Shown here one piece after another: positions 1-45,296 of a DNA stretch of 64,000 nt. The translations under genes and the position numbers were made by a program. Source of the DNA: a virus; the IMG/VR virus record IMGVR_UViG_3300042452_000282, positions 1-64,000 of that record; one strand, 5' to 3'. The notes beneath the pieces were generated by a model. It did no database searches and was not told where the DNA came from. It saw only the letters and a program-made list of their open reading frames with translations. Every line of letters starts with the position of its first letter. Within the stretch, counting starts at the first letter, position 1.

Positions 1-1
1 A

Positions 2-109
2 TTCTTCCCATTCTTCCCACCGTTCTTCCCGTACTTCCCATTCTTCCCATTCTTCCCACCGTTCTTCCCGTACTTCCCATTCTTCCCATTCTTCCCACCA
101 TACTTCCCA
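2..109 (+). repeat. Phe/Pro-coding tandem repeat (FFP/YFP array)
   Basis: Low-complexity array built on TTCTTCCC units. A 39-base (13-codon) higher-order unit is present at 20-58 and 59-97, followed by a partial copy. It encodes FFP, FFPP and YFP blocks in the frame of the Hint protein. It runs off the left edge of the window. A related array lies at 44748-44924. Confidence 0.9.
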
Positions 110-583
110 ACTTTCTCTAAGGGATATAAGTGTGTCTATGCAAAATCTAAAATCCTTACCAACAATGGATATGTTAATGCTGAAGACATTAAGGTAGGAG
201 ATATTTTGCTTACAGTTGACCCAAGTTATTTAACAAATTCTGATACACTAAACAACGTGTCAATATCTGATAATGTTGAATTTATTGAAACAGAAGTTGT
301 TAAGAGCGAGTTAAGCCAAAAGCAGTTAATTAAATTAAATGATGGTGAAAATTTATTCTCACCATATCAGCCAATCTTTATTAAAAATGAAGTTGGAATT
401 GGTACTAAAGAACCTAAAGATATTGTTGTAGGAGATATTCTTGTAAATATTGATAGCAACTCTGGAAAGGTTTCATATGTTCCAGTTGAAAAGATTGAAA
501 TACTTGATGAGGGAGATGTTTATGAAATTAGAACAGCCCCACATGCTTGGTTCCTAGTTGGAAATTATTTAGTAATTTCGTAA
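2..583 (+). CDS. Phe/Pro-repeat protein with C-terminal Hint (intein-like) domain, 5'-truncated
   Basis: The frame is open from the window edge, so only the C-terminal 193 residues are seen. It starts with an array of FFP/FFPP/YFP units (about 36 residues). A Hint-type autoprocessing domain follows, beginning at a Cys (codon 131-133, context YKCVYAKSK), with the usual block ILTNNGYVNAEDIKVGDILL. A second GD-containing strand is KDIVVGDILVNID. The C-terminal block is PHAWFLVGNYLVIS. Hint domains perform an N-S acyl shift at the Cys and cause cleavage, splicing or ligation. Here the usual TxxH block B reads SPYQPIF (Gln where His is expected), and the chain ends in IS instead of HN. Full splicing is therefore unlikely, and N-terminal cleavage is uncertain. 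The same Phe/Pro array occurs in the tail protein at 42417, so this is probably a virion or tail-tip protein. Domain call fairly sure; role inferred. Confidence 0.72.
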   Translation, partial: FFPFFPPFFPYFPFFPFFPPFFPYFPFFPFFPPYFPTFSKGYKCVYAKSKILTNNGYVNAEDIKVGDILLTVDPSYLTNSDTLNNVSISDNVEFIETEVVKSELSQKQLIKLNDGENLFSPYQPIFIKNEVGIGTKEPKDIVVGDILVNIDSNSGKVSYVPVEKIEILDEGDVYEIRTAPHAWFLVGNYLVIS

Positions 584-1208: not shown

Positions 1209-1209
1209 T
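1204..1209 (+). promoter_or_regulatory. -10 box placed for leaderless start
   Basis: TATAAT overlaps the stop of the methyltransferase gene and ends 6 bases before the ATG at 1216. A transcript starting 7 bases after the box would begin at the start codon. No Shine-Dalgarno is present. No TGn extension is seen here, so this is the weakest member of the leaderless set. Confidence 0.4.
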
Positions 1210-1215
1210 CTTAAC

Positions 1216-2812: not shown

Positions 2813-2813
2813 G

Positions 2814-3872
2814 ATGACAGGATTTAATACTAGATCTATACATTCTGGAAGACCAGATAGAACTCCAGATGGTCCATTCAATACTCCAATATCTCTTAAC
2901 TCTACATATTATGCTGGAGGAGATATTGGCTATGCAAGATATGGAAATGAAAACTGTAAAGATTTAGAAAATGCAATATCATCTTTAGAGGGCGGAAAGA
3001 CATTAGCTTTTAGCTCTGGTATGTCTGCCGTGAGTTCTATTTTATCAACGATACCAGTTGGAGGTATTGTAGTTGCATCAAACCAAGGTTATGCTGGAGT
3101 AAACGCCACATTAAAAAAACTAAATGATGAAAATAAAATAATTGCAAGATTTGTGGATATAGCAAATACAGAAGAAGTTATAGAAAATCTTACAGGGGCG
3201 TATATGTTGTGGATAGAGTCTCCTACAAACCCAATGTTAGATATTGCAGAATTAGAAACTTTAATAAATTGCGCTAAACAATCAAATATTATTGTTGTAG
3301 TAGATAATACATTTGCGACACCAATTAATCAGCAGCCACTTAAACTGGGTGCAGATATTTCATTACATTCCGTTACAAAATATTTATCGGGTCATAGCGA
3401 CGTATTAATTGGATCTATATCTACAAATAACAATGACCTTTTTGAGAAGATAGAGTTTGAAAGAAAAATAAACGGAACTATAGCAGCACCATTTGAATCC
3501 TGGCTTTCTTTGAGAGGCATAAGAACTTTCCCTTTAAGATTTAAAAAGTCTGAGAATAACGCAAGAGGATTGGTTTGGAGACTACAAAACCATCCTAAAG
3601 TTAACAAAGTATATTATCCTGGATTTGGAGGAGTCGTATCTTTTGAAATTGATGCAACAGAAATCGAAGTTGATGAGATATGTTATTCTTCAAAACTAAT
3701 AGGATATGCTACAAGCCTTGGAAGCGTAGAGTCTTTGTGGGAAAGAAGAAGGCGTTGGCCACTAGAGAGTCCCCTGGTCCCCCACAACCTGATTAGACTG
3801 TCTGTAGGGTGTGAAGACATGGAAGATATATGGAATGATATAAAATATTCCATAGAAAAGGTGGTTGGATAA
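2814..3872 (+). CDS. cystathionine gamma-synthase/lyase-like PLP enzyme
   Basis: 352 residues, Cys/Met metabolism PLP-dependent family (MetB/MetC/Cgl type). Seen: TRSIHSG N-terminus, YARYGNEN, SSGMSAVSS (phosphate-binding loop), SPTNPMLDI, VVVDNTFATP with cofactor Asp164, and SVTKYLSGHSD with the PLP-lysine Lys189. The C-terminus has SLGSVESL and RLSVGCEDMEDIW, which looks like actinobacterial relatives. It is shorter than the usual 380-400 residues: the YPG and FGG motifs, normally separated by nearly 20 residues, are fused as YPGFGGVVSF. Enzymes of this family make or split cystathionine, or release H2S or methanethiol. The exact reaction cannot be told. One base separates it from the radical SAM gene, so the two are probably co-transcribed. 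Confidence 0.88.
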   Translation: MTGFNTRSIHSGRPDRTPDGPFNTPISLNSTYYAGGDIGYARYGNENCKDLENAISSLEGGKTLAFSSGMSAVSSILSTIPVGGIVVASNQGYAGVNATLKKLNDENKIIARFVDIANTEEVIENLTGAYMLWIESPTNPMLDIAELETLINCAKQSNIIVVVDNTFATPINQQPLKLGADISLHSVTKYLSGHSDVLIGSISTNNNDLFEKIEFERKINGTIAAPFESWLSLRGIRTFPLRFKKSENNARGLVWRLQNHPKVNKVYYPGFGGVVSFEIDATEIEVDEICYSSKLIGYATSLGSVESLWERRRRWPLESPLVPHNLIRLSVGCEDMEDIWNDIKYSIEKVVG

Positions 3873-3974
3873 ATGTGTTGGATGTGTGGATGCGCTGATC
3901 ACGTCGGATTAGGTAATGATAGACCCACAGATTCAGTTGACAATAATAATGAAAATGATATAATAGATACATGA
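3873..3974 (+). CDS. 33-residue Cys-rich peptide
   Basis: ATG follows directly on the stop of the PLP enzyme, and the stop overlaps the next ATG (ATGA). It encodes MCWMCGCADH, followed by an Asp/Asn-rich, acidic tail ending in NDIIDT. CxxCxC plus His could bind zinc or a metal cluster. Alternatively it could be a small substrate peptide for the nearby radical SAM protein. The tail is low in complexity. The tight spacing to both neighbours supports real translation. Part of its 3' end also serves as the -10 region for the next gene. Confidence 0.5.
   Translation: MCWMCGCADHVGLGNDRPTDSVDNNNENDIIDT
3956..3964 (+). promoter_or_regulatory. extended -10 promoter for leaderless start at 3971
   Basis: TGATATAAT; the hexamer ends 6 bases before ATG 3971, so transcription would start at the A of the start codon. 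No ribosome-binding site is seen. It lies inside the preceding small gene. Confidence 0.5.
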
Positions 3975-4513
3975 AAATTTGCGTAGTGTCATTAAACATG
4001 TCCAGAGGAGAAGAGATTGCATCTCTTTTTTCTCTTAAGAGTATAAGCTATGAATATTTTTTTAAAGGAATAGGTTATCAAACCTCTTTAGGTAAATATG
4101 AAGAAAATATCAATGGTGCAAAAGAATACTTTGATTCTAAATACGCAAATGTTGATGCCTTTATAGAATTCCCATCTTCTTTTATACACCAGTATGCTTT
4201 TGAAAAAGATAATAATACTAAGTTTATTTTTATTGATATAAGCAAAGAAGCTTGGCTTGAAAAAATGAATTATGTAAAAGACCTTTATGTTAGCCATGTG
4301 CCTGATTATTTATTTGAAGAATTTTTCTGCAACTTTTATCAGCAAACAGGCAAAACAAATATGCTTGATCTAACGAATGAAGAGCTTTCTACAATATATG
4401 ATGCTCACGTTAGCAGCATTAACAGTAATCTGTCAAGCAATCCTAATTTTATTAAAATTGATTACGACGATCCAGATTTAATAAATAAAATTAGTCAGTT
4501 TTTAAACATCTAG
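3971..4513 (+). CDS. unknown protein, possibly sulfotransferase-like
   Basis: 180 residues. I do not firmly recognise it. The segment VDAFIEFPSSFIHQYAF followed by TKFIFIDISKEAWLEKM resembles the part of sulfotransferases where the donor chamber strand (AKFIlxxRD..W) lies. The N-terminal CVVSLNMSRGEEIASLF sits where a phosphosulfate loop would be but lacks its Gly-rich signature. It may be a degenerate relative or an unrelated fold. It follows methyltransferase and radical SAM genes, so a decorating role would fit, but this is weak. Confidence 0.45.
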   Translation: MKICVVSLNMSRGEEIASLFSLKSISYEYFFKGIGYQTSLGKYEENINGAKEYFDSKYANVDAFIEFPSSFIHQYAFEKDNNTKFIFIDISKEAWLEKMNYVKDLYVSHVPDYLFEEFFCNFYQQTGKTNMLDLTNEELSTIYDAHVSSINSNLSSNPNFIKIDYDDPDLINKISQFLNI

Positions 4514-4515
4514 TA

Positions 4516-4544
4516 TTGACACATTTTTTTTAATGTGTTATTAT
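4516..4544 (+). promoter_or_regulatory. strong promoter with inverted repeat in the spacer
   Basis: TTGACA (4516-4521), 17-base spacer, TATTAT (4539-4544). The spacer holds the inverted repeat ACACATT/AATGTGT (4519-4525 and 4532-4538), which could be an operator. It would drive the genes from 4578 on; an AGAAGG ribosome-binding site precedes the GTG start. Confidence 0.7.
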
Positions 4545-4577
4545 TATAACCTCTTATTATTAGAAGGGTAATTAATA

Positions 4578-5048
4578 GTGGATGAATTAAGCAAGCCATT
4601 AAAAACATTTCAGGCTAACTCTATTGTGTTCACAAATCTTGTTCGGGGATTTGTTTGGAACACAGAGTCGGTTTTGATGAGACAATCTAGAATTGTATAT
4701 AGAGATATTTATGAAGATTCAGAAAAGGCAGTAGATGAAACTTCCAATTGGTTAAGGAAGCTAAACATAGAAGCATTATATACGTTAGAACAGTATGCCG
4801 AATACCAGACCTTGGGAAATGTAAAGCCAGACACTTATTGTGGAGTCGAAATGGCTGTTCATCTAGTTCCAATAAATAAAAAAATGATTGAAGAAATAAA
4901 AATATTAATATCAACCGCAATCAGATTTGGTGAGCACGGACTTGTTCAACATTTATCTCAAAGGTTATCTAAGCATCAAGAATGGAATTGGTTTCTGGAA
5001 TCAAGTTTAAAACTACCTCCAAACCCTTGGAAATCTTTAAAAGACTAA
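4578..5048 (+). CDS. Dps/ferritin-like protein, metal site degenerate
   Basis: 156 residues, GTG start with AGAAGG upstream. The helical pattern is like Dps (starvation DNA-binding miniferritin): NTESVLMRQSRIVYRD early, VDETSNWLRKLN in the place of D..AERI..LG, and the C-terminal HQEWNWFLESSL, matching the Dps ending H.EK..WML...L. The His/Asp/Glu ferroxidase residues expected in the first helices are not clearly kept. It may bind DNA or act as a scaffold rather than oxidise iron. It heads a unit with its own promoter. The family call is moderate and the function inferred. Confidence 0.5.
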   Translation: MDELSKPLKTFQANSIVFTNLVRGFVWNTESVLMRQSRIVYRDIYEDSEKAVDETSNWLRKLNIEALYTLEQYAEYQTLGNVKPDTYCGVEMAVHLVPINKKMIEEIKILISTAIRFGEHGLVQHLSQRLSKHQEWNWFLESSLKLPPNPWKSLKD

Positions 5049-5049
5049 G

Positions 5050-6096
5050 ATGCATCTAGACACTGCTATTAACAGCGTTTGTTTTGACGACGTCTTACTT
5101 GTTCCTAAAAAATCAAGTGTTGTTAGTAGGTCTAGTGTTGATGTTAAAACAAAATTAGGAAATCCAAATAACCCAGCAGCGCATATTAATTTAGATATTC
5201 CATTTTTAATGGCACCAATGGATTTTATAAGTACCAATGAAATGATTTATAAAATAATTAATAGAGGCGGGATGGGGTTTATAAATAGGTGGCAGAATTC
5301 TGCAAATAGATTTAGTCAGCTAAAAGAATTGTCTAGGCTGTTGCCATCAAACAATAAATTAGGATTCTCTGTAAATATTGAAGAGGCAAACAATTCTGAT
5401 TTTATTAATAATATTTTATCTCATAACATAAAAACATTACTAATAGATACGGCATTTGCTCACACAGATATTTGTATAAATGCTGTAAAACAACTTAGAT
5501 CGTCTGTTACAAATGACACTCATATAATGATTGGAAATGTTTCTTCCTATGAAGCATATAATGATTTAATGAATTCTGGAGCAGATTCAGTACGAGTAGG
5601 TATCGGTGGCGGAGCAGCATGCAATACCAGATTTGCTACTGGATTTGGAGTTCCAGTTCTTGCGTCAGTTATGGATGTTTATAACAATATTAAATCAAAT
5701 GAAATAAACGGATTGATTTCAGATGGCGCAGTAAAGCAAACTGGCGACATTGTAAAAGCTTTAGCCGCAGGCGCAAGTGCAGTAATGATGGGATCCATGT
5801 TTGCGGGTCATGAAGAATGTGCAAGTAATGAATTTAGAGGAACGGCATCTCTTAGCTTACAACTAGATTTAATGGATAAAAAGCCAGAAGATGCAAGTCG
5901 TTTGCATGTAGAGGGTGTTCATGGCAAAGTAGAAAAAAGAGGCAGTGTTGAGGATACAATTAATCAAATGATTAATAACTTGACAAGCGGAATGTCGTAT
6001 TGCGGATCTCACAACCTAAAAGATTTTCGTGAGAATTGTAAGTTTATAATAGTTTCTAGTCAGTCAGTAAAAGAATCAGGAACAAGAGTTTCCTGA
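5050..6096 (+). CDS. IMP dehydrogenase / GMP reductase family protein
   Basis: 348 residues, GMP-reductase length, without CBS domains. Motifs: FDDVLLVPKKS, PFLMAPMDFIS, RGGMGFINR, GADSVRVGIGGGAACNTR with the catalytic Cys loop, SDGAVKQTGDIVKALAAGA and MMGSMFAGHEE. The end, GMSYCGSHNLKDFRENCKFI, is closer to IMP dehydrogenase than to GMP reductase. The IMPDH flap is short, with SRLHVEGVHGKVEKRG. The enzyme interconverts IMP with XMP or GMP and would shift the host guanine nucleotide pool. Which direction it works in cannot be fixed by eye. It follows the Dps-like gene after one base. Confidence 0.85.
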   Translation: MHLDTAINSVCFDDVLLVPKKSSVVSRSSVDVKTKLGNPNNPAAHINLDIPFLMAPMDFISTNEMIYKIINRGGMGFINRWQNSANRFSQLKELSRLLPSNNKLGFSVNIEEANNSDFINNILSHNIKTLLIDTAFAHTDICINAVKQLRSSVTNDTHIMIGNVSSYEAYNDLMNSGADSVRVGIGGGAACNTRFATGFGVPVLASVMDVYNNIKSNEINGLISDGAVKQTGDIVKALAAGASAVMMGSMFAGHEECASNEFRGTASLSLQLDLMDKKPEDASRLHVEGVHGKVEKRGSVEDTINQMINNLTSGMSYCGSHNLKDFRENCKFIIVSSQSVKESGTRVS

Positions 6097-6153: not shown

Positions 6154-6864
6154 ATGAATTATCAAGACCCACAAGACCACTGGTTTAATAAAGATAGATC
6201 TGAGACAGCTTCTAATAGGCTGCCAGAAAGAAGAGTTAACAGTACTATTACAACTACTAATCCAGGATTAGGTCTAAACATTTATCATAATACTTTTTCA
6301 AAAGAGGACGCAGAAAGATATATAAAGATACTTGAAGACAACTTAACTAATGGGGCCAGATATAGATGGTCAGAGGCTCAAGTAACAAATTCTGTAGTTC
6401 CGATTAAAAAGGCAAGGGACTGCGTAGATTTTAAATTTAAGCCAGAAAACCTTGGCCCTAAAAATGAATTTAATGCTCCATTAATTGATTTACATAATGA
6501 AATTTATGAGAAGTTAAAATTTTGTATTGATGATTACGCAAGATACTGGGGGATAAATGTTGTATATTATGAAGCATTTAACTTTGTAAAGTATGAAGGA
6601 GAAGGTAAGCATTTTAGAATTCATGCCGACCATGGGCCAGCATATAATTGTACTGTATCTGCAGTAATTTATATTAACGATGACTACGAGGGTGGAGAGA
6701 TACAATTTCCAAGATTAGATAATCATATTCATACCCCAAAAGTTGGAGATATTGCAATATTCCCATCAAACTATATTTATGAACATGCGTCATTGCCAAT
6801 GAAAGAGGGAACTAAGTATTGTGTTGTTATTATGACAGACATTAATGAAATCGGTCATAAGTAA
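6154..6864 (+). CDS. 2OG-Fe(II) dioxygenase A (prolyl-4-hydroxylase-like)
   Basis: 236 residues from ATG 6154, chosen because AGGTAGGA lies in good range; a GTG at 6130 has no such site. Double-stranded beta-helix oxygenase: the iron triad is in RIHADHG (HxD) and YEHASLP (distal His), and the 2-oxoglutarate-binding basic residue is in GTKYCVV. The P4H signature INDDYEGGEIQF lies between. The family couples 2-oxoglutarate decarboxylation to hydroxylation, often of proline or other side chains. First of seven intact family members within 7.2 kb, and closest in order and sequence to B. Substrate unknown. Confidence 0.88.
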   Translation: MNYQDPQDHWFNKDRSETASNRLPERRVNSTITTTNPGLGLNIYHNTFSKEDAERYIKILEDNLTNGARYRWSEAQVTNSVVPIKKARDCVDFKFKPENLGPKNEFNAPLIDLHNEIYEKLKFCIDDYARYWGINVVYYEAFNFVKYEGEGKHFRIHADHGPAYNCTVSAVIYINDDYEGGEIQFPRLDNHIHTPKVGDIAIFPSNYIYEHASLPMKEGTKYCVVIMTDINEIGHK

Positions 6865-7625
6865 TGAAAATAATTTTTAGGTCATTCAGGCCCTGGTTAA
6901 AAAAAGATAGCAAGTCAACTCCTGCCACAACACACTCCGTGATGCCAAAGTGGTACAAGGAGGCAGACAGATTTGCTAAGATGCCAAACGGAGATTATTT
7001 TAAAGCTCCTAAAGCGGTTTGTCCATTTCCAAAAGAAGGAACTAAGGATGATTATGGCAAGATCCCAACTTGGAAAGCTTGCCCAGCAATTATGGATGGG
7101 TTCTCAACAGGTTACGTTTTAAAAACACCATGCGACATAACATTTTTTAAAGACAGTCAGGGAAATATTGATGTTAAGGTTTCAGAATTAAACTGCAGAG
7201 ACTTCGTATCAAGAAGGCCACCCATGCCACAGTTTGAGCACCCAAAGGGTTACTACAAGTATCACTTTGCTTGGCAGCCAGATTGGGGTCTAGAGGTTCC
7301 AGAAGGATACAGCTGTATATATATGACACCAATGAATAGATTCGATCTTCCATTTTTAAATACTACTGGGATTGTAGATAACGATAAAGTTCATTTGTCT
7401 GGAACATTCCCATTTTTTGTTGTTGATGGATATGAAGGCACAATTAAAGCTGGAACCCCATATATGCAAATTATCCCATTTAAAAGAGAAGATTGGGAAA
7501 GTGAAATAGAGCTATTGTCTCAAAATGACATTTATGCTAAAATGAATGACAACATGAAAAAGTATAGGGTTCCCGACGGTGGGGTATACATAAAGAATGT
7601 CTGGTCAAGAAGAGAGTACAAGTAA
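6864..7625 (+). CDS. DUF6065-like protein, paralogue 2
   Basis: 253 residues, its ATG overlapping the stop of oxygenase A. Same signature as the 1216 protein: MPKWYK near residue 30, CPAIMDGFSTGYVLKT, TPMNRFDLPF, FPFFVVDGYEG followed by IKAGTPYMQIIPFKRE, and the closing VWSRREYK. Unknown function. It is sandwiched between oxygenases A and B with overlapping ends, so the three are surely co-expressed. No membrane segment or signal peptide is seen. The extra N-terminal part relative to paralogue 1 includes a Pro/Lys-rich loop with two Cys. Confidence 0.72.
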   Translation: MKIIFRSFRPWLKKDSKSTPATTHSVMPKWYKEADRFAKMPNGDYFKAPKAVCPFPKEGTKDDYGKIPTWKACPAIMDGFSTGYVLKTPCDITFFKDSQGNIDVKVSELNCRDFVSRRPPMPQFEHPKGYYKYHFAWQPDWGLEVPEGYSCIYMTPMNRFDLPFLNTTGIVDNDKVHLSGTFPFFVVDGYEGTIKAGTPYMQIIPFKREDWESEIELLSQNDIYAKMNDNMKKYRVPDGGVYIKNVWSRREYK

Positions 7626-8308
7626 TGCAAACATGGTCTAGCAAAGAAGAAGTGGCTACAGGAATTGTTGTTTATAGAGACGTTATAAAACCAGAAATTG
7701 ATGTTATAAATAGACTTGACAGCGTATTGGGAGAGGTTGCACCATGGGGACAATTATCTCCAGATGGCAAAAGATACCACTGGAATCCAGCTTATGTTGG
7801 ATACCAACAACTTATGCCAGACTATAGAGATTGTGTAGATTTTAAGTTTAAAAAAACAGACATAGAGGCAGATAAAAGCGAAGAGTCATTAAAGCTACAG
7901 TCTTTGTGGCAAGATGTGTATGATGCCCAAAATCCTGCAGTTGAAGATTATCGTAGAATGTTTAACATTATGCCATTAAAATATTGGGAAGCTTTTAATT
8001 TTATTAAATATGGACCAGGCCAACACTTTCAAGAACATCATGATCATGGATATTCTTATAACTGTACTGTGTCACTTGTAGCATACCCAAACGATGATTA
8101 CGAAGGTGGAGAGCTATTTTTTAGACTTCAGGGTTTAAACATAAAGCCAAAAGCTGGAGACCTGTATATATTTCCTTCTAATTTTATGTATCCTCATAGA
8201 GCTATGCCAGTAACTAGTGGAACTAAACATTCAATAGTTACAATGCTTGATTATAGCAAAAAATATCATACGCCAGATATGTATGATCCAAAGTGGGATA
8301 ATGAATAA
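7625..8308 (+). CDS. 2OG-Fe(II) dioxygenase B (prolyl-4-hydroxylase-like)
   Basis: 227 residues, TAATG overlap with the preceding gene. Iron ligands EHHDHGY (HxD) and YPHRAMPV (distal His), 2-oxoglutarate residue in GTKHSIV; signature PNDDYEGGELFF. It resembles oxygenase A along most of its length, including RDCVDFKFK, YWEAFNFIKY and IFPSNFMYPH, so A and B are recent duplicates. The shared RDCVDFKF block is not present in the other five, marking a subfamily. Confidence 0.88.
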   Translation: MQTWSSKEEVATGIVVYRDVIKPEIDVINRLDSVLGEVAPWGQLSPDGKRYHWNPAYVGYQQLMPDYRDCVDFKFKKTDIEADKSEESLKLQSLWQDVYDAQNPAVEDYRRMFNIMPLKYWEAFNFIKYGPGQHFQEHHDHGYSYNCTVSLVAYPNDDYEGGELFFRLQGLNIKPKAGDLYIFPSNFMYPHRAMPVTSGTKHSIVTMLDYSKKYHTPDMYDPKWDNE

Positions 8309-9027
8309 TGATTAATATATCGGTAGAAAAAATGCAAGGGTGTAAGTTTAAAATAGATCCAATGTCTATTAAAAGAGACTGGATGGATGTTACCTCAGAA
8401 AAGCATGCCTACAGATGTTTTCCAGTAACACAGGCCAACGTAGTAGGATGGAACTTATCCTGCACAGAAGATATAATTTTTACTTGGGATGGAATAAATG
8501 ATCAGACAGACCAGCATGTAAAGATAACTAAACCTGCTGATGCTTACTCTGGACGAGGACAGTCTACAATAAGTCTAAATACAGGTATGGTTTTTAGGAC
8601 AGACCCAGATGTTAGTATATGGACAATAAATCCAGTAAATTATTTTAATGAAGATTTTGAAACAATGTCTAATTTAATGAGCACATCTTTTTATGATAAT
8701 CCATTGCCTTTAGCAATCAAAGCTAAAAAGGCAAATGTAGAAACTGTAATCAAGGCTGGTACTCCAATAGCTACAATAATTCCAATATCTTTGAGTAACT
8801 TAAACAATTCAGTTATAGAGATTGTTCAGTATAGAGATGATGACAGGTCTAGACACAATGCTAATATGTCTTATGGAGAAGCCGCACAGGTTATAAATTC
8901 TTCTGGAAACTGGACGGATTGGTATAGAGACGCTGTAGATGAGAACGGTAATTCTTTAGGTTCTCATGAAACTAAGACTTTGAGGTTATCTGTAAATGAT
9001 AATACTGCTTCTAATGGAATGGTATAA
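8308..9027 (+). CDS. DUF6065-like protein, paralogue 3 (divergent)
   Basis: 239 residues, TAATG overlap with oxygenase B. It shows the classic-looking DUF6065 pattern: YRCFPVTQANVVGWNLSC near the start, a central RTDPDVSIWTINPVNYF, and IKAGTPIATIIP in the second half. It differs from paralogues 1 and 2 in lacking the N-terminal W-K motif. Unknown function. Placed directly between oxygenases B and C. Confidence 0.7.
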   Translation: MINISVEKMQGCKFKIDPMSIKRDWMDVTSEKHAYRCFPVTQANVVGWNLSCTEDIIFTWDGINDQTDQHVKITKPADAYSGRGQSTISLNTGMVFRTDPDVSIWTINPVNYFNEDFETMSNLMSTSFYDNPLPLAIKAKKANVETVIKAGTPIATIIPISLSNLNNSVIEIVQYRDDDRSRHNANMSYGEAAQVINSSGNWTDWYRDAVDENGNSLGSHETKTLRLSVNDNTASNGMV

Positions 9028-9028
9028 T
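9020..9028 (+). promoter_or_regulatory. extended -10 promoter for near-leaderless start at 9034
   Basis: TGGTATAAT overlaps the preceding stop codon; the hexamer ends 5 bases before ATG 9034. It may re-initiate transcription of the second half of the oxygenase cluster. Confidence 0.4.
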
Positions 9029-9033
9029 TAAGT

Positions 9034-9762
9034 ATGGAAATTGTAAACAAAGACATACACTTACACGCACCGAAATCAATAACCCCATCTGGATTTTTTG
9101 GGTACAGCAAGGATATGATTGTTGAACTAGAAAATTTTATGACTGAAGATGAGATAAACTTCCTTGAGTCAGCTGCTAAAAAGATTACAATTTGGGACTA
9201 CACAGAAGATCATGTAAATGAAAATGGAACAGTTATATATGATTCAAGTTATTGGAAAGACAGAGTTTGTAGTGCTCCATCTTTAAACAAAAATGATCCA
9301 AACATTGTTCCAGTTATAGTTGGACTCTTTCAAAGACTACAGCCAATCATAGAAGATTTTTATAAGGTAAAAGCTCAGCCAACTGGGCAGACAATCGTTA
9401 GGTGGCTACCTGGTCAATTCCAAAGACCACACGCAGACAAAGAATTACATGAAGGGCCAGATGCTGGATTGTCCAATGATTTTCCATGGTATGATTTAGC
9501 TAGCTTGTTTTATTTAAATGATGATTATGAAGGCGGAGAGTTATATTTCCCTAATCAAGGAATTCAATTTAAGCCTAAAAGAGGTGCTGCCTACTTTTTC
9601 CCTGGAGATATGAATTATATTCACGGTGTAACAGAAATAAAAGGTAGCATAAGATATACAGTTCCATTCTTTTGGACTATATTAGAACATACTGGAGAAG
9701 TTAAGCCAGAACCTGATAAGAAGTACTATAGGGTTTTAATAGATGGAGATAAGAATGTATAG
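9034..9762 (+). CDS. 2OG-Fe(II) dioxygenase C (prolyl-4-hydroxylase-like)
   Basis: 242 residues. Iron ligands RPHADKE (HxD) and YIHGVTE (distal His); 2-oxoglutarate Arg in SIRYTV; signature LNDDYEGGELYF with QFKPKRGAAYFFPG. The middle has RWLPGQFQRPHAD, the usual strand before the metal site. It differs from A and B in the N-terminal half, with NFMTEDEINFLES like the classic P4H start. Substrate unknown. Confidence 0.88.
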   Translation: MEIVNKDIHLHAPKSITPSGFFGYSKDMIVELENFMTEDEINFLESAAKKITIWDYTEDHVNENGTVIYDSSYWKDRVCSAPSLNKNDPNIVPVIVGLFQRLQPIIEDFYKVKAQPTGQTIVRWLPGQFQRPHADKELHEGPDAGLSNDFPWYDLASLFYLNDDYEGGELYFPNQGIQFKPKRGAAYFFPGDMNYIHGVTEIKGSIRYTVPFFWTILEHTGEVKPEPDKKYYRVLIDGDKNV

Positions 9763-10654
9763 CGAAGAAATATATCCATATATTATAGTTTATAACGGCG
9801 TATTAGAAGATGTTGACAAGATGTATAGGATAGCTAAAGATATTGGAAGTTCAGAAACAGGAATATTTGAAGACTGGAAACCATGGTACGAATTTGGAGA
9901 AAAAGTAGAAAAGTTCGGAATAAATTTTAACAAATCCGATAGAGAAATGAAGTTTGCCTGGGATCATGAAGAGCCTACAACCGATAAGGGAAGAGATCAA
10001 AAATATTTTATTTGTGAGCTAGTTAAAGGTTTTCATAAAGTAAATAATGATTTTATTAATAGGTTTAACCTAGATGTTGATCCTACTCATGTCTCTAATC
10101 CAGTAAACTCCTTGTACTCAGAAACTTATAACTCTGAGCAATCTGTAGTTTCTGAGATAAGCACCTGGAGATGGACTGGTCCAAGCCTATGCAAGTATTT
10201 TGATGATGCAGGAAAAGGACACCCATTGGCAATGAATTATCATTCTGACTTTATTAGAGAGCCTATTAAGACCCCAGGATATAAATTTGCAATTACAACT
10301 ACTACATACCTAAACGACGACTATGATGGCGGAGAAGTTGAATTTATTATTAATAATAAAATATTTTCTTACAAGCCTAAAGCTGGAGACTTTTTAGTTT
10401 TTCCTTCAGGGCACCCAGAAATTCTTACAGAAGATGGAAAGGTATACCTACACGGAGTTACAAATAACTTAAACGGAGAAAAGCTTTTTACTAGAATGTA
10501 TTGGCAAAAGTATGACCTTGGCGATAAAGAATGGTTTGAGAATGAAGAGAAGTATGGCAGAGATAAGTGGATATCAATGCAAGGTGAAATAATGTCAGAG
10601 TACCAGGAAAAGGTACAAAAGAAAAACCTAGATGGATTAGTGAGGATAAAATGA
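9755..10654 (+). CDS. 2OG-Fe(II) dioxygenase D (prolyl-4-hydroxylase-like)
   Basis: 299 residues from ATG 9755, chosen because GGAGA stands just upstream; it overlaps oxygenase C by 8 bases. Iron ligands NYHSDFI (HxD) and YLHGVTN (distal His); basic residues for 2-oxoglutarate in GEKLFTRMYW; signature LNDDYDGGEVEF. It is the largest of the seven, with a longer N-terminal half and a charged C-terminal extension (KEWFENEEKYGRDKW). Co-translated with oxygenase E through an ATGA overlap. Confidence 0.87.
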   Translation: MYSEEIYPYIIVYNGVLEDVDKMYRIAKDIGSSETGIFEDWKPWYEFGEKVEKFGINFNKSDREMKFAWDHEEPTTDKGRDQKYFICELVKGFHKVNNDFINRFNLDVDPTHVSNPVNSLYSETYNSEQSVVSEISTWRWTGPSLCKYFDDAGKGHPLAMNYHSDFIREPIKTPGYKFAITTTTYLNDDYDGGEVEFIINNKIFSYKPKAGDFLVFPSGHPEILTEDGKVYLHGVTNNLNGEKLFTRMYWQKYDLGDKEWFENEEKYGRDKWISMQGEIMSEYQEKVQKKNLDGLVRIK

Positions 10655-11394
10655 ATTTAAATAATCAAAATAGATTGACTAAGGACATAGTCCTTTATGA
10701 AAACTTTTTAACTGAAGAGCAGTGCGCTGCTTTAATAAAAGTTTTAGACAAGCAGGCTGAAACAGAAAAACTATCATGGACTCCAATTTCTTTTTATGAA
10801 TCTTACTCATCAGTTTTGCCACAAGATGGAGATCCAGAGATAGAAGAGTTTGGCTTGGAGTCAGACATATTTTCTCAAATTAGATCTGGAATTATAGATG
10901 CTGTTGCTTCAGTTCATGGACTAGATCCTAAAAAGGTAGTTCAAATTGGATACCATACTCAAAAGTGGGAGCCTGGAGCATATGCAAGAATACATTCAGA
11001 CAACACAGATGAAAAAGGAAACACTGGGCCATTTGCAAGAAGTAGATACGCAGCCTTCTTATATTTGAATGATAATTTTGAGGGTGGTATGCTTAAGTTT
11101 CCATCACAAGATATTAGCATACAGCCTAAGACTGGATTGTTAGCTGCATTTGATGGCGGATTTAATAACATGCATGAAGTAAGTATGATAACTTCAGGAG
11201 TTAGATACACTCTAGGGTCTTTCTGGGACGATAGAGAAGAATCAGATTATCCACAAGAAGTCAGAGATGCTTGGGCAGAAGAAATGCAGAAGATTAGAGA
11301 TCAGCAAGCAGTAGAAAAGGCGGAGTGGCAAGATCTTCTTAAAGAAGGTTATAAGATTGATCCAAATGGTAAGAAATATAAAATAGGAGATTGA
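10651..11394 (+). CDS. 2OG-Fe(II) dioxygenase E (prolyl-4-hydroxylase-like)
   Basis: 247 residues, ATGA overlap with oxygenase D. Iron ligands RIHSDNTD (HxD) and NMHEVSM (distal His); Arg in GVRYTLGSFW; signature LNDNFEGGMLKF, slightly altered from DDYEGGE. The N-terminus, YENFLTEEQCAALIKVLD, is the common P4H helix. It carries a charged helical tail after the catalytic core (WAEEMQKIRDQQAVEKAEW), possibly a coiled coil for partner binding. Confidence 0.87.
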   Translation: MNLNNQNRLTKDIVLYENFLTEEQCAALIKVLDKQAETEKLSWTPISFYESYSSVLPQDGDPEIEEFGLESDIFSQIRSGIIDAVASVHGLDPKKVVQIGYHTQKWEPGAYARIHSDNTDEKGNTGPFARSRYAAFLYLNDNFEGGMLKFPSQDISIQPKTGLLAAFDGGFNNMHEVSMITSGVRYTLGSFWDDREESDYPQEVRDAWAEEMQKIRDQQAVEKAEWQDLLKEGYKIDPNGKKYKIGD

Positions 11395-11395
11395 C

Positions 11396-12094
11396 ATGGA
11401 AAAAGAAATATTAGAAGAAAATGTTTACTATTACAAGAACGTAATACCAGATCCAAAAAAGTTTGTGGAGATGATTGATTCCACAGAAAATGAGGAATGG
11501 GGTAATTCAGTTACTAAATGGAATGAGTGGACAGCCTGTAGTGGAGAGATGTATCTTTACGGAGCTCAAAAAACTGTAAACCCATCTGATGAAGAGAGAG
11601 TAATTAAAACAACAGACAATAAGGCTGGATACATTTATAACACCATCATGGATGCCTTCTATGCCGTTTGTAAAGATTATGCGGAAGCTCACGGAGACAA
11701 CGAAACTCCCATCAATTTCCCATTATTTGATATTAAGAAGTATAGCCCAGGAACCTACATGGGAGCACACTTTGATCAGCAAGAAGGAGACACTAGATTA
11801 AAGTACTCACTTGTGTTTTATTTAAACGATGATTACGAGGGTGGAGAACTTTCATTTACCATTGAATCTCCAGACGCACCAATCATACAGGGCAAGCCAG
11901 AAGAAGATTTTGCCGTAGCAAAAGATGGAAACAGAGTTACTATAGCCATTAAGCCAGAGGCAGGGAGCGTTATTATATTCCCATCATCTCCACCATATCA
12001 TCACACCGCACACTTAGTTAAGAGCGGATTTAAGTATATGGTACCACTTCATTGGTATAGAACCATGGAGCCAGTAAATAATCCAACGATGTAA
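11396..12094 (+). CDS. 2OG-Fe(II) dioxygenase F (prolyl-4-hydroxylase-like)
   Basis: 232 residues. Iron ligands GAHFDQQEGD (HxD) and HHTAHLVKSG (distal His); Lys in GFKYMVPLHW; signature LNDDYEGGELSF. An insert between the signature and the next strand (about 25 residues with KPEEDFAVAKDGNR) is not seen in A, B or C. It starts one base after the stop of oxygenase E and ends three bases before the SDR gene. Confidence 0.87.
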   Translation: MEKEILEENVYYYKNVIPDPKKFVEMIDSTENEEWGNSVTKWNEWTACSGEMYLYGAQKTVNPSDEERVIKTTDNKAGYIYNTIMDAFYAVCKDYAEAHGDNETPINFPLFDIKKYSPGTYMGAHFDQQEGDTRLKYSLVFYLNDDYEGGELSFTIESPDAPIIQGKPEEDFAVAKDGNRVTIAIKPEAGSVIIFPSSPPYHHTAHLVKSGFKYMVPLHWYRTMEPVNNPTM

Positions 12095-12096
12095 AT

Positions 12097-12765
12097 ATGA
12101 AAACCGCCATAGTTACTGGAGCTAGCAAGGGCGTAGGTTACGAAACAGTAAAAGTTTTATCCCAAAATGGGTACAAAGTTATTGCTGTGTCACGTAATTT
12201 ATCTAAGTTGGCAGAGATTGCTTCTGACAACATAGAGACATACAGCTTAGACATTACTGATGAAAAAGCCATCAAGGCATTCTACGATAAATATAAAGAT
12301 ATAACTTTAGATCTATTAGTAAATAATGCTGGCGGTGGAGCAGGGCCAACATATCTAATAAACGAAACTATGGAAAACTTTAGAAGAGCGTATGATATCA
12401 ATGTTTCTGGACCAATGTATTTGTCTCAATTGTTTGTACCAGCAATGAAAAATTCTGAATCTCCGACTATTGTTTTTGTCACTTCCTTGTGTGGAAAAGT
12501 ACCATACCGTGGAAGCGGAAATTATTCAAATGCTAAACGTGGAGAAATGGGATTAATAGACACTATGAGAATGGAATTCCCAGCATATGGAATTAAGGTT
12601 ACGGAAGTGTGCCCAGGAACAATAGACACACAGTTAGAGAAAAAGGATAACGCTTTAACTGCTGCAGATATGGCTGAAACAATTAGATGGGTAGGATCTT
12701 TACCTAGTCATGTAAATATAAACCATATAGAGATAAGTCACATAAATAATAATAAATATAATTAG
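12097..12765 (+). CDS. short-chain dehydrogenase/reductase
   Basis: 222 residues, classical SDR. The cofactor loop is TGASKGVG near the N-terminus, then NNAGGGAG, the serine of FVTSLCGKV, and the catalytic YxxxK in NYSNAKRG. CPGTIDTQ follows the active site. It is NAD(P)H-dependent and acts on an alcohol/ketone pair. It is embedded in the oxygenase series, so it could oxidise or reduce a hydroxylated product, but this is inferred from position only. The C-terminal region after GTIDT is short, and the usual substrate-binding helices are reduced. Confidence 0.9.
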   Translation: MKTAIVTGASKGVGYETVKVLSQNGYKVIAVSRNLSKLAEIASDNIETYSLDITDEKAIKAFYDKYKDITLDLLVNNAGGGAGPTYLINETMENFRRAYDINVSGPMYLSQLFVPAMKNSESPTIVFVTSLCGKVPYRGSGNYSNAKRGEMGLIDTMRMEFPAYGIKVTEVCPGTIDTQLEKKDNALTAADMAETIRWVGSLPSHVNINHIEISHINNNKYN

Positions 12766-12771
12766 GAATTT

Positions 12772-13338
12772 ATGAAGATAAACAAGATATACGATGATGT
12801 TTATGAGGTAGAAAATTTCCTAACAGACTCAGAATTTGAAGAAGTAAAAAAAATTATAAACAGTTTTTCTGAAGAAGACTGGAATAATGAAGAGATGAGA
12901 GTTAAAAATCAAATTCCCGATTTCTGGTTTGGCAAACAGATAGTCTTTGAAGAAGAAAATGTATTCTCAAGAGCAAATAAAAAAATGGAATCCTTATTTA
13001 AATCTTATTCGTATTATCCTACTGGTATGATTTTACAAAGGTATAAAAAGGGAGATTTTATACAGCATCATGCTGATCAGTGGAGAACTGATATAGACTA
13101 TTATATTGGGTATGGACTGTGTCTATATTTTAACGATGACTATGAGGGTGGAGAATTGGACTACCCTGATCTAGGAATTACTATAAAGCCAAAAGCTAAT
13201 TCGCTATTTATACATGGAGGACATATAGTTCACGGCTCACTTCCAGTTTTAAGTGACGATATAAGATATTTCACCACTGTATTTGTTAGAGGCACAACAG
13301 AGCTTCCTACTAAACTAAACCCAGAACTGTTTGCCTGA
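12772..13338 (+). CDS. 2OG-Fe(II) dioxygenase G (prolyl-4-hydroxylase-like)
   Basis: 188 residues, the shortest of the set, AGGA ribosome-binding site. Iron ligands QHHADQW (HxD) and VHGSLPV (distal His); Arg in DIRYFTTV; signature FNDDYEGGELDYPD with TIKPKANSLFIHGG. N-terminus YEVENFLTDSEFEEVKKI. It closes the oxygenase cluster and precedes the LamG-like virion protein. Confidence 0.88.
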   Translation: MKINKIYDDVYEVENFLTDSEFEEVKKIINSFSEEDWNNEEMRVKNQIPDFWFGKQIVFEEENVFSRANKKMESLFKSYSYYPTGMILQRYKKGDFIQHHADQWRTDIDYYIGYGLCLYFNDDYEGGELDYPDLGITIKPKANSLFIHGGHIVHGSLPVLSDDIRYFTTVFVRGTTELPTKLNPELFA

Positions 13339-42416: not shown

Positions 42417-45296
42417 ATGCCATCAGATATTTATGTTAAAAAAGACACTGGCTGGTCTACACCTGTAACAAAAATTTTTGCAAAAACAAATTCTGCATGG
42501 TCTTCAGCAATAAGATATGTTTATTCAAAAATAAATGCTGGATGGACTAGAGTATGGCCATTATCTGGTGTGTATCCAAATACAAATCCATTTATATCTA
42601 ATAACACAACAACAACTTCGGAAATATCTTATGGAACAGTTCTTCGTGTTGGCACAACTTACAAAGGAGATAGAGGAGATTGGAATCCAAATGGATACAC
42701 TATAGGTTCATATGATTATAAGTGGATAGCATTTACTAATGAAACTGGGTCTTCTACAAATTATGAGCAAACCTATGCTGCTTTAAGCGGATCAACAAAT
42801 ACATTTACTATAACTGGAACTACAGCAGCCAACTTTGATCGTGGCTGGATAACATTTCGTGTCAGGGCTAATGCATCAAACTCTGCTTACTCTGGAACAG
42901 CAGACTCATTAAGATATTATGTTGCCAGACAGAAACCAAGATTAGCAACTGGCGGGTCTCCTACTCTTAATAACACAAGCCCTAATGTAGGGGATACAAT
43001 TAGTTATTCTTCTGGTTGGGATATAACCGATGCCTATAAACCAGAAGCATCTAGGTCAACAATTAAGTGGTATAGGAGCACTTCTACAGGATTAACTGAG
43101 TCTCAGTTAAAATCTTTAACTCCAATACAGAGTAGTACATCAACTCCAGCACCAGCAAGTCCGTATTCATATGTTACACAAGCAGCTGATTCTGGAAATT
43201 ATATATATGCAATGGAAGAAGTATTTAATTCTGGAACTGATTTAGAATCATTAGTTAATGGAGTTACTGCAATTGTTAGAACAACAAACGCTGTTGCAAC
43301 AGCACCTAATGCTTTTACTTATACCATTAGCAATATCAGTTCTGTTACAACTCCAAGCACACCAACACAAACTAGGGTGTCTGCAACTTCCAATAATATT
43401 TTATTTGAATGGGCTTCAGCAATACCAGATGACACATTGGGATATACATTTAATGTTTCTGGCGCAGTTAATGCCACAGGAAATCAAACTGTCGATATTA
43501 TAAATTTATTTACAAATAGCGCAGACTATGAATCAACACTAGCTAGCACTGCAAATAATTCTGCAGTTAGTGCTTACGTTGTTGCAAGAGGAAAGACTAG
43601 AAGCTATCAGGCAAATGTCAGCACAACAACTGGAGCACAAAGCTGGAACATTACTGGATCTTATACAATAGGAGCGTTACAGGATGTGTTTGAGGTAAAT
43701 ACAAATTCAATGCCAGTAAAAATATTAGATGTTACTGGAGCTACTAATCCTACAGTTACTATAAATAGCGTAACAGCATATTCTGGACTTAATCAAACTG
43801 GATCTACTAGAGCTGGCACTGCTGGTAGTCCAGTAACATCTTCTGGAGTTGCAAGACCTACAGCGACTTCTGGCACATCTACATCAAATTATACATTTTA
43901 TGTTAACAACCAGGCAACTGGATCACAAAGAAGAATTAATTTACCAATAGGTACTTCATTTACAAGTGGAACAACTATATACGTTTCTACAAATGGATTC
44001 ATTGGTATAGGGTCAAGCTCAGACCCATCTGGAGCTTATTCATTCCCATCTACTGGTCTATACATAGCTCCATTACTACAAGATCTTAGACAAACAGCAT
44101 TATGGACTTTTTCTGATTCAAGTAATTTTTATGTGCGGTGGCAGGGTGCAAGATATAATGATGCCAATCAAACTGTAGATTATCAAGCCAAATTTTATTG
44201 GGATTCAAGAGGAATAGATATAAATTTTGTTGCAAATAATTTATCAAACAATAATCAACCATCTACTACTGCAGTATATAATAATGGAGTAGAAATTTTA
44301 AATTGGTCTGGGTCTACAGCACAAACTTCAACATTAATAAATACTTCTACTATGACAAGAAATACTACGCAGGATACAGTTGATGATTCTAGAACATTAA
44401 TAGTTGCAAGTCAGCAATTACCTAAACCAGTAAATACAGTACTCCCAGCTATTACTCCAACTACTGGAGTACAAGGTGTTACACTGTATACTGTAAGTAA
44501 TGGGTCTTGGACAAATTCTCCAAGCTCATATACTTATCAATGGAGATATTTTGACCAAGGTTCTATTTATCCAGCAGCTCCTAATAGCATAACTACTCCA
44601 TTTACAAGTACAGCTCAAACATATACGCCTCCGTCAAACTATACATCGATATATGGAAGTTCATTATATTGTGATGTGGTAGCTAGCAATGGTATAAGTT
44701 CAGACCCATCAAGATCTGTTGCTGTAACAGTTACCGTTCCTGCACCGTTTTTCCCACCATTCTTCCCGCCATTCTTCCCATTCTTCCCACCTTTCTTCCC
44801 ACCGTTCTTCCCACCATTCTTCCCGTTCTTCCCACCTTTCTTCCCACCGTTTTTCCCACCATTCTTCCCGCCATTCTTCCCATTCTTCCCACCTTTCTTC
44901 CCACCGTTCTTCCCACCGTTCTTCTCTTCGTTTGTCACTCCTTCTGCTCCAGCTCCAGCTTTACAGTTCCAAAGAAACACTACAAGCCAATTCCTAAGAT
45001 GGTATTGTGATTATCCGTCAGTTAGCGGAAGCGTAGATTCAATTACTGGTATGGAATTTGAAATAAGAACAACAGCAGGTGGAGGAACTTTGCTAGCAAG
45101 CGGAACAAGGCCTTATCCTGGAGACTTTACATATCCATATAATGTTGGTGGAGTAAATTGGGCCTTTAAAGCTGGCGTTGACGGGCAGGTTTCTGATATT
45201 ACATATAGCAGCTCTGCAAGATATGGAAGAGCTAGAGTGGTAATGCTGGGAACAAATGGTACTACTTACAGGGGGACATGGTCATCATGGATATAG
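42417..45296 (+). CDS. tail fibre-like protein with Phe/Pro repeat array
   Basis: 959 residues. The N-terminus repeats a W-V-Y motif (TGWSTPVTKIFAKTNSAW, then IRYVYSKINAGWTRVWP), known from fibre attachment domains. Middle: Ig/FN-like beta domains (QWRYFDQGSIYPAAPN, then YCDVVASNGISS). Residues 778-836 are the array FFPPFFPPFFPFFPP and so on. A C-terminal beta domain of about 120 residues follows (QFLRWYCDYPSVSG). No Hint domain here, unlike the window-start protein. The array probably acts as a rigid spacer or hydrophobic bundle. A surface fibre role is inferred from position. Confidence 0.75.
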   Translation: MPSDIYVKKDTGWSTPVTKIFAKTNSAWSSAIRYVYSKINAGWTRVWPLSGVYPNTNPFISNNTTTTSEISYGTVLRVGTTYKGDRGDWNPNGYTIGSYDYKWIAFTNETGSSTNYEQTYAALSGSTNTFTITGTTAANFDRGWITFRVRANASNSAYSGTADSLRYYVARQKPRLATGGSPTLNNTSPNVGDTISYSSGWDITDAYKPEASRSTIKWYRSTSTGLTESQLKSLTPIQSSTSTPAPASPYSYVTQAADSGNYIYAMEEVFNSGTDLESLVNGVTAIVRTTNAVATAPNAFTYTISNISSVTTPSTPTQTRVSATSNNILFEWASAIPDDTLGYTFNVSGAVNATGNQTVDIINLFTNSADYESTLASTANNSAVSAYVVARGKTRSYQANVSTTTGAQSWNITGSYTIGALQDVFEVNTNSMPVKILDVTGATNPTVTINSVTAYSGLNQTGSTRAGTAGSPVTSSGVARPTATSGTSTSNYTFYVNNQATGSQRRINLPIGTSFTSGTTIYVSTNGFIGIGSSSDPSGAYSFPSTGLYIAPLLQDLRQTALWTFSDSSNFYVRWQGARYNDANQTVDYQAKFYWDSRGIDINFVANNLSNNNQPSTTAVYNNGVEILNWSGSTAQTSTLINTSTMTRNTTQDTVDDSRTLIVASQQLPKPVNTVLPAITPTTGVQGVTLYTVSNGSWTNSPSSYTYQWRYFDQGSIYPAAPNSITTPFTSTAQTYTPPSNYTSIYGSSLYCDVVASNGISSDPSRSVAVTVTVPAPFFPPFFPPFFPFFPPFFPPFFPPFFPFFPPFFPPFFPPFFPPFFPFFPPFFPPFFPPFFSSFVTPSAPAPALQFQRNTTSQFLRWYCDYPSVSGSVDSITGMEFEIRTTAGGGTLLASGTRPYPGDFTYPYNVGGVNWAFKAGVDGQVSDITYSSSARYGRARVVMLGTNGTTYRGTWSSWI
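44748..44924 (+). repeat. Phe/Pro-coding tandem repeat (FFPP/FFP array)
   Basis: 177 bases of TTCTTCCCA-type units, encoding 59 residues of FFPP and FFP blocks within the tail fibre gene. Shares near-identical blocks with the array at 2-109. Confidence 0.9.

Follow-up and report, generated by a model that had tools for sequence, protein, structure and literature searches.

The window analyzed here, 64,000 nucleotides from the 65,620-base IMG/VR virus record IMGVR_UViG_3300042452_000282 (positions 1 to 64,000), carries at 6154-13338 an almost gapless block of ten plus-strand genes. In the order A, D65b, B, D65c, C, D, E, F, SDR, G, these code for seven 2-oxoglutarate/Fe(II)-dependent (2OG) oxygenases (A to G), two DUF6065-type proteins (D65b and D65c) and a short-chain dehydrogenase/reductase (SDR). 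The first bases of the window hold the 3′ part of a gene for a protein with C-terminal Phe-Pro repeats (hereinafter REP), and a second repeat protein is encoded some distance away (Table 1). The block, conserved in many uncultured phages, stands beside an FFPP-repeat tail-fibre-like protein, which suggests that a phage surface protein is chemically finished on a dedicated line.

Seven 2OG oxygenases in a conserved block

In a Pfam profile search all seven 2OG proteins exceeded the PF13640 cut-off (28.7-53.6 bits vs 27), in agreement with the first-pass annotation of the window, which had listed seven intact genes of this type (its gene at 9755 is in frame with the open reading frame [ORF] starting at 9743) together with an SDR, likewise recovered here. 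A six-frame PF13640 search of the whole record found six of the seven, missing D. A MAFFT alignment placed the HxD motif, the distal histidine and the following K/R in register in all seven, bearing out the iron ligands and basic residue annotated earlier, and the signature NDDYEGGE, described as near-constant, occurs unchanged in A, B, C, F and G, with the variants NDDYDGGE in D and NDNFEGGM in E. A and B are indeed the closest pair, and at 45% identity over 172 aa they are not the close duplicates they had been taken for; the remaining pairs gave lower or shorter matches. Across all the loci gathered in this work, the H, D, H and K/R positions are intact in 787 of 814 alignable 2OG ORFs, the 27 exceptions comprising 12 ORFs cut by contig ends, four entries from L014 and L106, and 11 degenerate F-like last paralogs. 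L014 and L106 are the same record, in which two short 2OG ORFs (8614-9225 and 12479-12994) lack the distal His region through either real loss or sequence error. The iron ligands have repeatedly been lost in the F-like last 2OG paralog adjoining a LamG gene (L123, L209, L225, L227, L231-L234, L236, L241 and L242), which is possibly a pseudo-enzyme with a binding role.

A profile built from 52 B-type and related sequences, in which H138, D140 and H191 are invariant, recovered as its best solved relatives the bacterial prolyl 4-hydroxylases 3itq and 5hv0 (E about 1.7e-14), followed by PKHD-type hydroxylases, P3H1, P4HA2, LH3 and PHD2. The AlphaFold2 (AF2) model of B, the only one of the seven modeled, has a double-stranded beta-helix fold, and Foldseek matched it to Pseudomonas putida prolyl 4-hydroxylase (P4H), PHD2, algal P4H and the chlorella virus enzyme vCPH (E 1.3e-11 to 5.7e-10, TMq 0.56-0.62), the fold match being partial (TMq 0.47-0.64 among the 50 matches listed). 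By both profile and fold, then, the nearest solved enzymes of B are mostly prolyl or lysyl residue hydroxylases, and because its nearest relatives are such enzymes, peptide hydroxylation, above all of proline, is the most likely predicted chemistry. Like these prolyl hydroxylases (3itq/5hv0, 4iw3, vCPH 5c5t, PHD2 and 3gze, the last solved with a (Ser-Pro)5 peptide), the phage proteins have the HxD...H...K/R site; they differ in that a single operon-like block combines several divergent paralogs and is linked to Phe-Pro repeats, a candidate substrate, and to DUF6065. E weakly resembles YhhC, a 2OG oxygenase of the type acting on ribosomally synthesized and post-translationally modified peptides, far under the cut-off (NF041706, 26.8 bits vs 150). 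Tet_JBP membership was not supported for any of the seven (C 15.4 and G 16.7 bits vs 34.9; no match at E 0.05 for the other five), and the sole match in a PADLOC profile scan was to a generic 2OG model labeled CRISPR-associated.

A scan of viral contigs with B retrieved at least 598 relatives, of which 80, at 81-100% identity, were kept. As far as their contigs reach, these 80 loci show the order A-D65b-B-D65c-C-(D)-E-(extra 2OG)-F-(SDR)-(G) again, interrupted by contig ends and with genes here and there lost, gained or repeated; the SDR ortholog cluster is present in 32 of the 80. Between the window and L010 the ratio of nonsynonymous to synonymous substitution rates (dN/dS) is 0.013-0.156 for the seven 2OG genes; the two DUF6065-type genes have ratios of 0.015 and 0.058, and the SDR has one of 0.024. 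Values for the other pairs reached 0.32 at most (D), with dS saturated in several. All seven 2OG genes are under purifying selection, and the dN/dS values across the seven led us to reject pseudogene drift. A tree of 174 2OG rows groups every 2OG gene of the window with counterparts from other loci (local support from 51 for F to 100 for E); mapping the rough best-hit labels on the tree gave one change each for D and F and 3-7 for the others. Each of A to G groups with genes from other phages, and A and B form the only close pair, so we also rejected recent local tandem amplification. The gene order and tree of the relatives did not show these genes carried singly and unlinked, the pattern that the first-pass annotation had named as speaking against a system; that the block is shared, syntenic and selected supports the earlier proposal that the genes form a dedicated modification system and are not incidental. 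What did not hold up is the view of seven such genes in a row as exceptional: positive records in the repeat-ascertained set described below have 1-12 PF13640 matches each, and the isolated cyanophage S-SCSM1 is reported to have 24 2OG genes (PMC9602691), of which PF13640 alone recovers 13.

Phe-Pro repeat proteins and their association with the block

REP was found upstream of the block by clustering neighboring ORFs. The protein belongs to the Fn3 type (PF00041, up to 1.3e-13). Its C-terminal region consists of a long run, for example FFPPFFPFFPPFFP, and closes with a Cys-rich or, in some, a Hint-like part. The repeats take the forms of FFP/FFPP mixtures, [FYHW]FPP and FF[AGS]PP[GS]. The window REP begins outside the window; its ORF occupies 2-583 in L008, and L007 has a homologue. 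None of the ten repeat or proline-rich proteins scanned reached the cut-off of the collagen-like family PF01391, the nearest being the FFGPPS repeat of L212 (23.3 vs 27.2 bits), and inspection of the window REP fragment, which lay outside that scan, revealed no Gly-X-Y. A near twin of the window, G124, has a 959-aa repeat ORF at 6351-9230. An FFPP-repeat protein flanking the block and a second one elsewhere in the window, neither of which figured in the first-pass annotation of the block, together make a specific candidate substrate.

Two side observations concern these repeats. By eye, a Hint-like end replaces the Cys-rich tail in the window (117-583), L133, L206, L212 and L239, the Hint_2 match of the L133 tail being below cut-off (0.003), which suggests self-processing or attachment of the fibre end. 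The N-terminus of C (window about 9040-9110) has a TPSGFFG-like motif resembling an FFxPP repeat, found in 62 of 120 C homologues of over 50% identity, which could be chance or a pseudo-substrate.

Association with the block was counted in differently ascertained sets. Among the 80 loci found with B, REP occurs in 65, including all 49 with at least 1 kb of upstream sequence; the 15 without it all have less than 1 kb. Conversely, a scan with repeat DNA gave at least 79 new loci, 77 after L096 (the record of L007) and L124 (the record of L108) were dropped; with L106 being the record of L014, this set overlaps slightly with the B-ascertained one. PF13640 (E≤1e-3) was present in 68 of these 77 records (44/50 + 24/27), mostly in several copies, and above the curated cut-off in 67, versus 2 of 46 neutral IMG/VR records, with one copy each (15-mer ascertained, the 46 of 80 listed loci longer than 15 kb, unmatched for habitat). 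Of the nine without it, L094, L097 and L156 have a repeat of merely 24-28 aa, L102, L137, L140 and L144 have the repeat at the contig end or at most 0.5 kb away, and L131 has a 2OG gene detected by our own profile and not by PF13640; the ninth, L119, is weighed below. Counting all loci, there are 150 REP ORFs, spread over 147 loci. For 124 of these ORFs an A, B, C or DUF6065-type gene follows downstream in the same orientation, in 122 cases no more than 2 kb away.

Of the 80 loci in a third set, ascertained through the portal gene of the window, 46 with under 8 kb upstream were set aside. Among the remaining 34, 15 have block and REP, five the block only, one a single 2OG gene without REP, 13 neither, and none REP only. 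The five block-only loci are cut at or near a contig end: L209 and L283 begin in a 2OG gene, L234 has 0.9 kb, L230 begins in a REP-like tail, and L236 has the repeat in another frame. A whole-record search of the 14 loci without the block found PF13640 in one (L265, one copy). In L251, L260 and L266 other tail-type genes (by eye) stand at the block's place, and both block and REP are absent.

The association extends to repeat records with very different blocks, whose best B match is 37-45% identical, and, on contigs of metagenome-assembled genomes (MAGs), to repeat proteins with another N-terminal part. A pattern scan of prokaryote genome contigs gave 55 stretches, 52 of them with a single match. 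Four MAG contigs with long FFPP repeats (L386, L397, L417 and L418, with L397 and L417 from one MAG) include three with 2OG genes and one with DUF6065, and the stretches around the other long-repeat ORFs on genome contigs (L381 and L395) contain neither. On L386, a Verrucomicrobiales MAG contig, three similar proteins of about 290 aa (243-2886), TauD-type-like by eye, lie beside the 2OG/DUF6065/REP set.

The presence of A also follows the form of the repeat. Over 113 loci, keeping the single-proline gene where, as in L145, there are two REP genes, A is present in 85/85 loci with a single-proline repeat and absent in 28/28 without one; the latter include L099 and L111, whose "B" is 29-31% identical. 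We further read through 17 long records, eight with A in the block and nine without. Six of the eight have repeat genes at least 8 kb from the block (two in G124, one each in G131, G002, G046, G045 and G139); six of these seven genes have single prolines, the seventh being a fragment at a contig edge. The nine A-less records have the linked repeat gene only, that of G063 being split by the 20-kb cut of our analysis.

Table 1. Coordinates of the block genes and the Phe-Pro repeat genes in the window.
Feature	Position	Strand	Evidence and remarks
REP, 3′ part	1..583	+	Repeat FFPFFPPFFPYFP... at about 2-110 (Tandem Repeats Finder [TRF] arrays 1-109), then Hint-like C-terminal part by eye
2OG oxygenase A (sister of B)	6154..6864	+	PF13640 9.3e-11; catalytic residues; co-occurs only with single-proline repeats
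D65b, DUF6065-type protein	6864..7625	+	PHROG 7084 4.1e-33
2OG oxygenase B	7625..8308	+	PF13640 4.5e-14; AF2 model, predicted local distance difference test score (pLDDT) 95.5; nearest relatives prolyl hydroxylases
D65c, DUF6065 protein, predicted dUTPase-like fold	8308..9027	+	PF19541 1.3e-28; AF2 model, pLDDT 95.0
2OG oxygenase C	9034..9762	+	PF13640 2.6e-8
2OG oxygenase D, weakest constraint among the seven	9743..10654	+	PF13640 8e-7; dN/dS 0.156 vs L010
2OG oxygenase E	10651..11394	+	PF13640 1.1e-8; weak sub-cut-off NF041706 YhhC match
2OG oxygenase F	11396..12094	+	PF13640 2e-11
SDR	12097..12765	+	PF00106 3.7e-43
2OG oxygenase G	12772..13338	+	PF13640 2.7e-6
Second, distant FFP/FFPP-repeat protein	42417..45296	+	ORF; TRF arrays, repeat at about 44743-44924

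DUF6065 proteins, neighboring cargo and the phage background

DUF6065-like genes in the block had been noted in the first-pass annotation. This stands for D65c (PF19541, 100.5 bits vs a cut-off of 26.6); D65b has no PF19541 match at E 0.05 and joins D65c through PHROG 7084. D65b is also 35% identical to a DUF6065-like gene at 1216. For the AF2 model of D65c, the 50 matches listed were all dUTPases, both with Foldseek (best E 6.7e-5) and with VIA (Z 11.6 with 124 aligned residues at a root-mean-square deviation [rmsd] of 5.1; the next row, 117 aligned at rmsd 3.2), where the alignment spans model residues 1-176 of 239, with the C-terminal helical part uncovered. The sole hint from the DUF6065 sequence profile was a viral dUTPase at 0.14. 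Searching the sequences, as text, for what we take to be the dUTPase motif 3 and 5 patterns, we found the motif-3-like GI[VI]DxD in 123 of 125 D65b and 13 of 17 D65a sequences and in none of 139 D65c sequences, and the motif-5 pattern in none of 281 DUF6065-type sequences. From model and motifs we read DUF6065 as a putative dUTPase-fold protein with another job, not a dUTPase. D65c had no match at E≤1e-3 in 50,697 phage records, and DUF6065 was unmentioned in the literature library that we searched, which excludes subscription papers and preprints.

In the window phage a cargo block at 585-6096 separates REP from A. It codes for a TylF-type methyltransferase, a DUF6065-like protein, a radical S-adenosylmethionine (SAM)-SPASM protein, a Cys/Met pyridoxal phosphate (PLP) enzyme, sulfotransferase-like and ferritin-like proteins (both matches below cut-off) and an IMPDH/GMPR family member. 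Among the 80 loci it is whole only in L007, L008 and L010, with L009 cut at A; L038 and L039 have a radical-SAM gene at 46%. The cargo block is probably a later insertion.

The portal family PF04860 occurs in 35 of 46 long records, and the window portal is 57-59% identical to those of Streptomyces phages of Stanwilliamsviridae (among the 15 matches listed); since phages of Streptomyces are its best relatives with a name, we take an actinobacterium to be the probable host. Yaboi has a portal 59% identical to the window's and the same portal-protease-major capsid protein order, but upstream of the portal it has ribonucleotide reductase, endolysin, gp47 and gp48 and no block; its 131 kb contain neither a PF13640 match nor the repeat pattern. 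A T4-like phage was rejected, as Gp23 was found in 0/23 repeat- or block-bearing records, nor in Yaboi, while the positive control S-SCSM1 matched; a T4 portal search (0/18, with no positive control) shows little. T4-like cyanophages (S-SCSM1, ACG-2014f) resemble the window phage in their many 2OG genes and share PHROG 61 with it, but their matches to B are below 60% identity (25-37% among the 40 matches listed), and the two records searched lack the FFPP-repeat pattern. In S-SCSM1 (L284, 210.7-219.7 kb) seven annotated 2OG genes lie around tail-fibre genes.

Cyanophage genes with P4H domains have been read as acting in DNA repair (PMC2984593), and phage 2OG proteins are described as resembling human EGLN3 (PMC12774648). 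Within the literature scope given above, and judging by titles and the opening of abstracts, we found no Phe-Pro repeat protein joined to phage 2OG oxygenases. Single phage 2OG genes and even large sets such as that of S-SCSM1 are known, and the predicted chemistry is of a known type; the combination of a conserved multi-dioxygenase block with DUF6065 and an FFPP-repeat protein was not found in that literature.

A predicted hydroxylation system for virion repeats

We propose, with a probability of about 0.6, that the block is a dedicated hydroxylation system for the Phe-Pro repeats of virion proteins. It would act as a trans-acting post-translational modification cassette: REP and a few other repeat proteins would be made as tail or surface parts, and the P4H-type 2OG/Fe(II) oxygenases would hydroxylate residues, most likely prolines, in the several repeat forms at the end of these tail-fibre-like, often Fn3-bearing proteins. 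The main substrate would be the adjacent REP, and repeat proteins encoded farther away, like that at 42417-45296, would be additional ones, with the paralogs probably specialized by sequence context or position in the repeat. As a guess, DUF6065 may bind substrate or product and the SDR may oxidize the hydroxyl; the product could be a soluble, rigid or adhesive fibre. Circumstantial support for the hydroxylation step is good. The data show that the genes are conserved, syntenic and under selection, that their active sites are intact, that the B model has a P4H-like fold and that the repeat gene is closely linked; we infer the repeat as the substrate, proline as the oxidized residue, a place in the virion for the repeat proteins, and the participation of DUF6065 and the SDR. 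Hydroxylated proline-rich repeats are known from collagen and extensin. A more specific form of the proposal, which we hold tentatively and at somewhat short of an even bet, is that several dioxygenases write a hydroxyl pattern along an aromatic-proline polymer of the virion, the enzyme set matching the repeat alphabet (as with A and single-proline units), and so turn an otherwise insoluble chain into a fibre that is rigid or sticky; this would be the phage equivalent of the hydroxylation of collagen or extensin.

Several observations weigh against this proposal. The match between A and single-proline repeats is one change on the B tree (54 rows, the 113 loci minus near copies) and so mostly loses its evidential weight; its single-proline pattern also counts SFPFF, and a stricter one makes L147 an exception. 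L119 is a true exception, its REP adjoining LamG with no block between on a 7.3-kb contig and with no PF13640 match in the whole record, while L099, L111 and L110 have the repeat yet only one PF13640 match in 25, 88 and 54 kb. Of the 26 REP ORFs without a downstream block gene, 14 are followed by less than 1 kb of sequence and 12 by more (L094, L096, L105, L119, L122, L136, L138, L143, the second of L145, L152, L156 and L165), though PF13640 is found elsewhere in most of the records of these 12, the block in some of them lying on the opposite side or strand. On the portal tree, to which L126 (a very long branch) and L119 were added by hand, the block shows three changes, too few for a sign test, and of the two supported independent pairs one agrees and the other (L119) has the same REP state; linkage alone could explain part of the association. 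The 2OG clusters of S-SCSM1 flank tail-fibre genes that lack the repeat and whose products may be a different kind of substrate; oxidation could fall on Phe, Tyr or His; and DUF6065 and the SDR are left unexplained.

That the block is instead cargo in a tail-fibre hot spot, an auxiliary metabolic set acting on host 2-oxoglutarate, host proteins or small molecules that the repeat adjoins through a shared exchange site, is the published reading for cyanophage 2OG genes (PMC9602691). Also in its favor are the methyltransferase, radical SAM, PLP enzyme and other cargo genes that separate REP from A in the window phage, and the small number of independent gains on the trees. We consider this reading unlikely in view of the frequency of PF13640 in repeat-ascertained as against neutral records (68/77 vs 2/46), the persistence of the association with very different blocks (B 37-45%) and other N-terminal parts, and the absence of both block and repeat in relatives with other tail-type genes at the site. 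A target other than the repeat, such as a glycan, a lipid or another tail protein of the virion or host surface, with the repeat serving only as platform or binding partner, strikes us as less probable again: the repeat is very hydrophobic and could anchor, and the SDR and the upstream methyltransferase- and sulfotransferase-like genes fit glycan chemistry, but the nearest solved enzymes mostly hydroxylate prolyl or lysyl residues and A tracks a proline feature of the repeat, albeit in one event.

Hypermodification of phage DNA or of the nucleotide pool by TET/JBP-like oxygenases with the dUTPase-fold DUF6065 appears very improbable. Its attractions are that predicted fold, the sub-cut-off Tet_JBP matches of C (0.011) and G (0.0045), the appearance of Naegleria Tet-like proteins (4.5e-5) among the results of the B-type profile search, and PHROG matches labeled DNA endonuclease or endonuclease V, labels that are unlikely to be right for 2OG proteins. 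However, the score of P4H-type enzymes is far better (1.7e-14); the dUTPase motif-3-like pattern is missing from D65c (0/139) and the motif-5 pattern from the DUF6065-type sequences as a whole (0/281), family searches of the block's ten genes gave no DNA methyltransferase, kinase or glycosyltransferase, and the repeat would be left unexplained.

For the proposed hydroxylation of virion repeats, the linkage described here supplies a concrete and easily made candidate peptide substrate for a whole block of 2OG enzymes. If the proposal is true, dedicated hydroxylation of virion repeat proteins would be common among uncultured phages, DUF6065 could be assigned a fold and a setting, and genetically encoded Phe-Pro materials hardened by enzymes would emerge as a new class of biomaterial.

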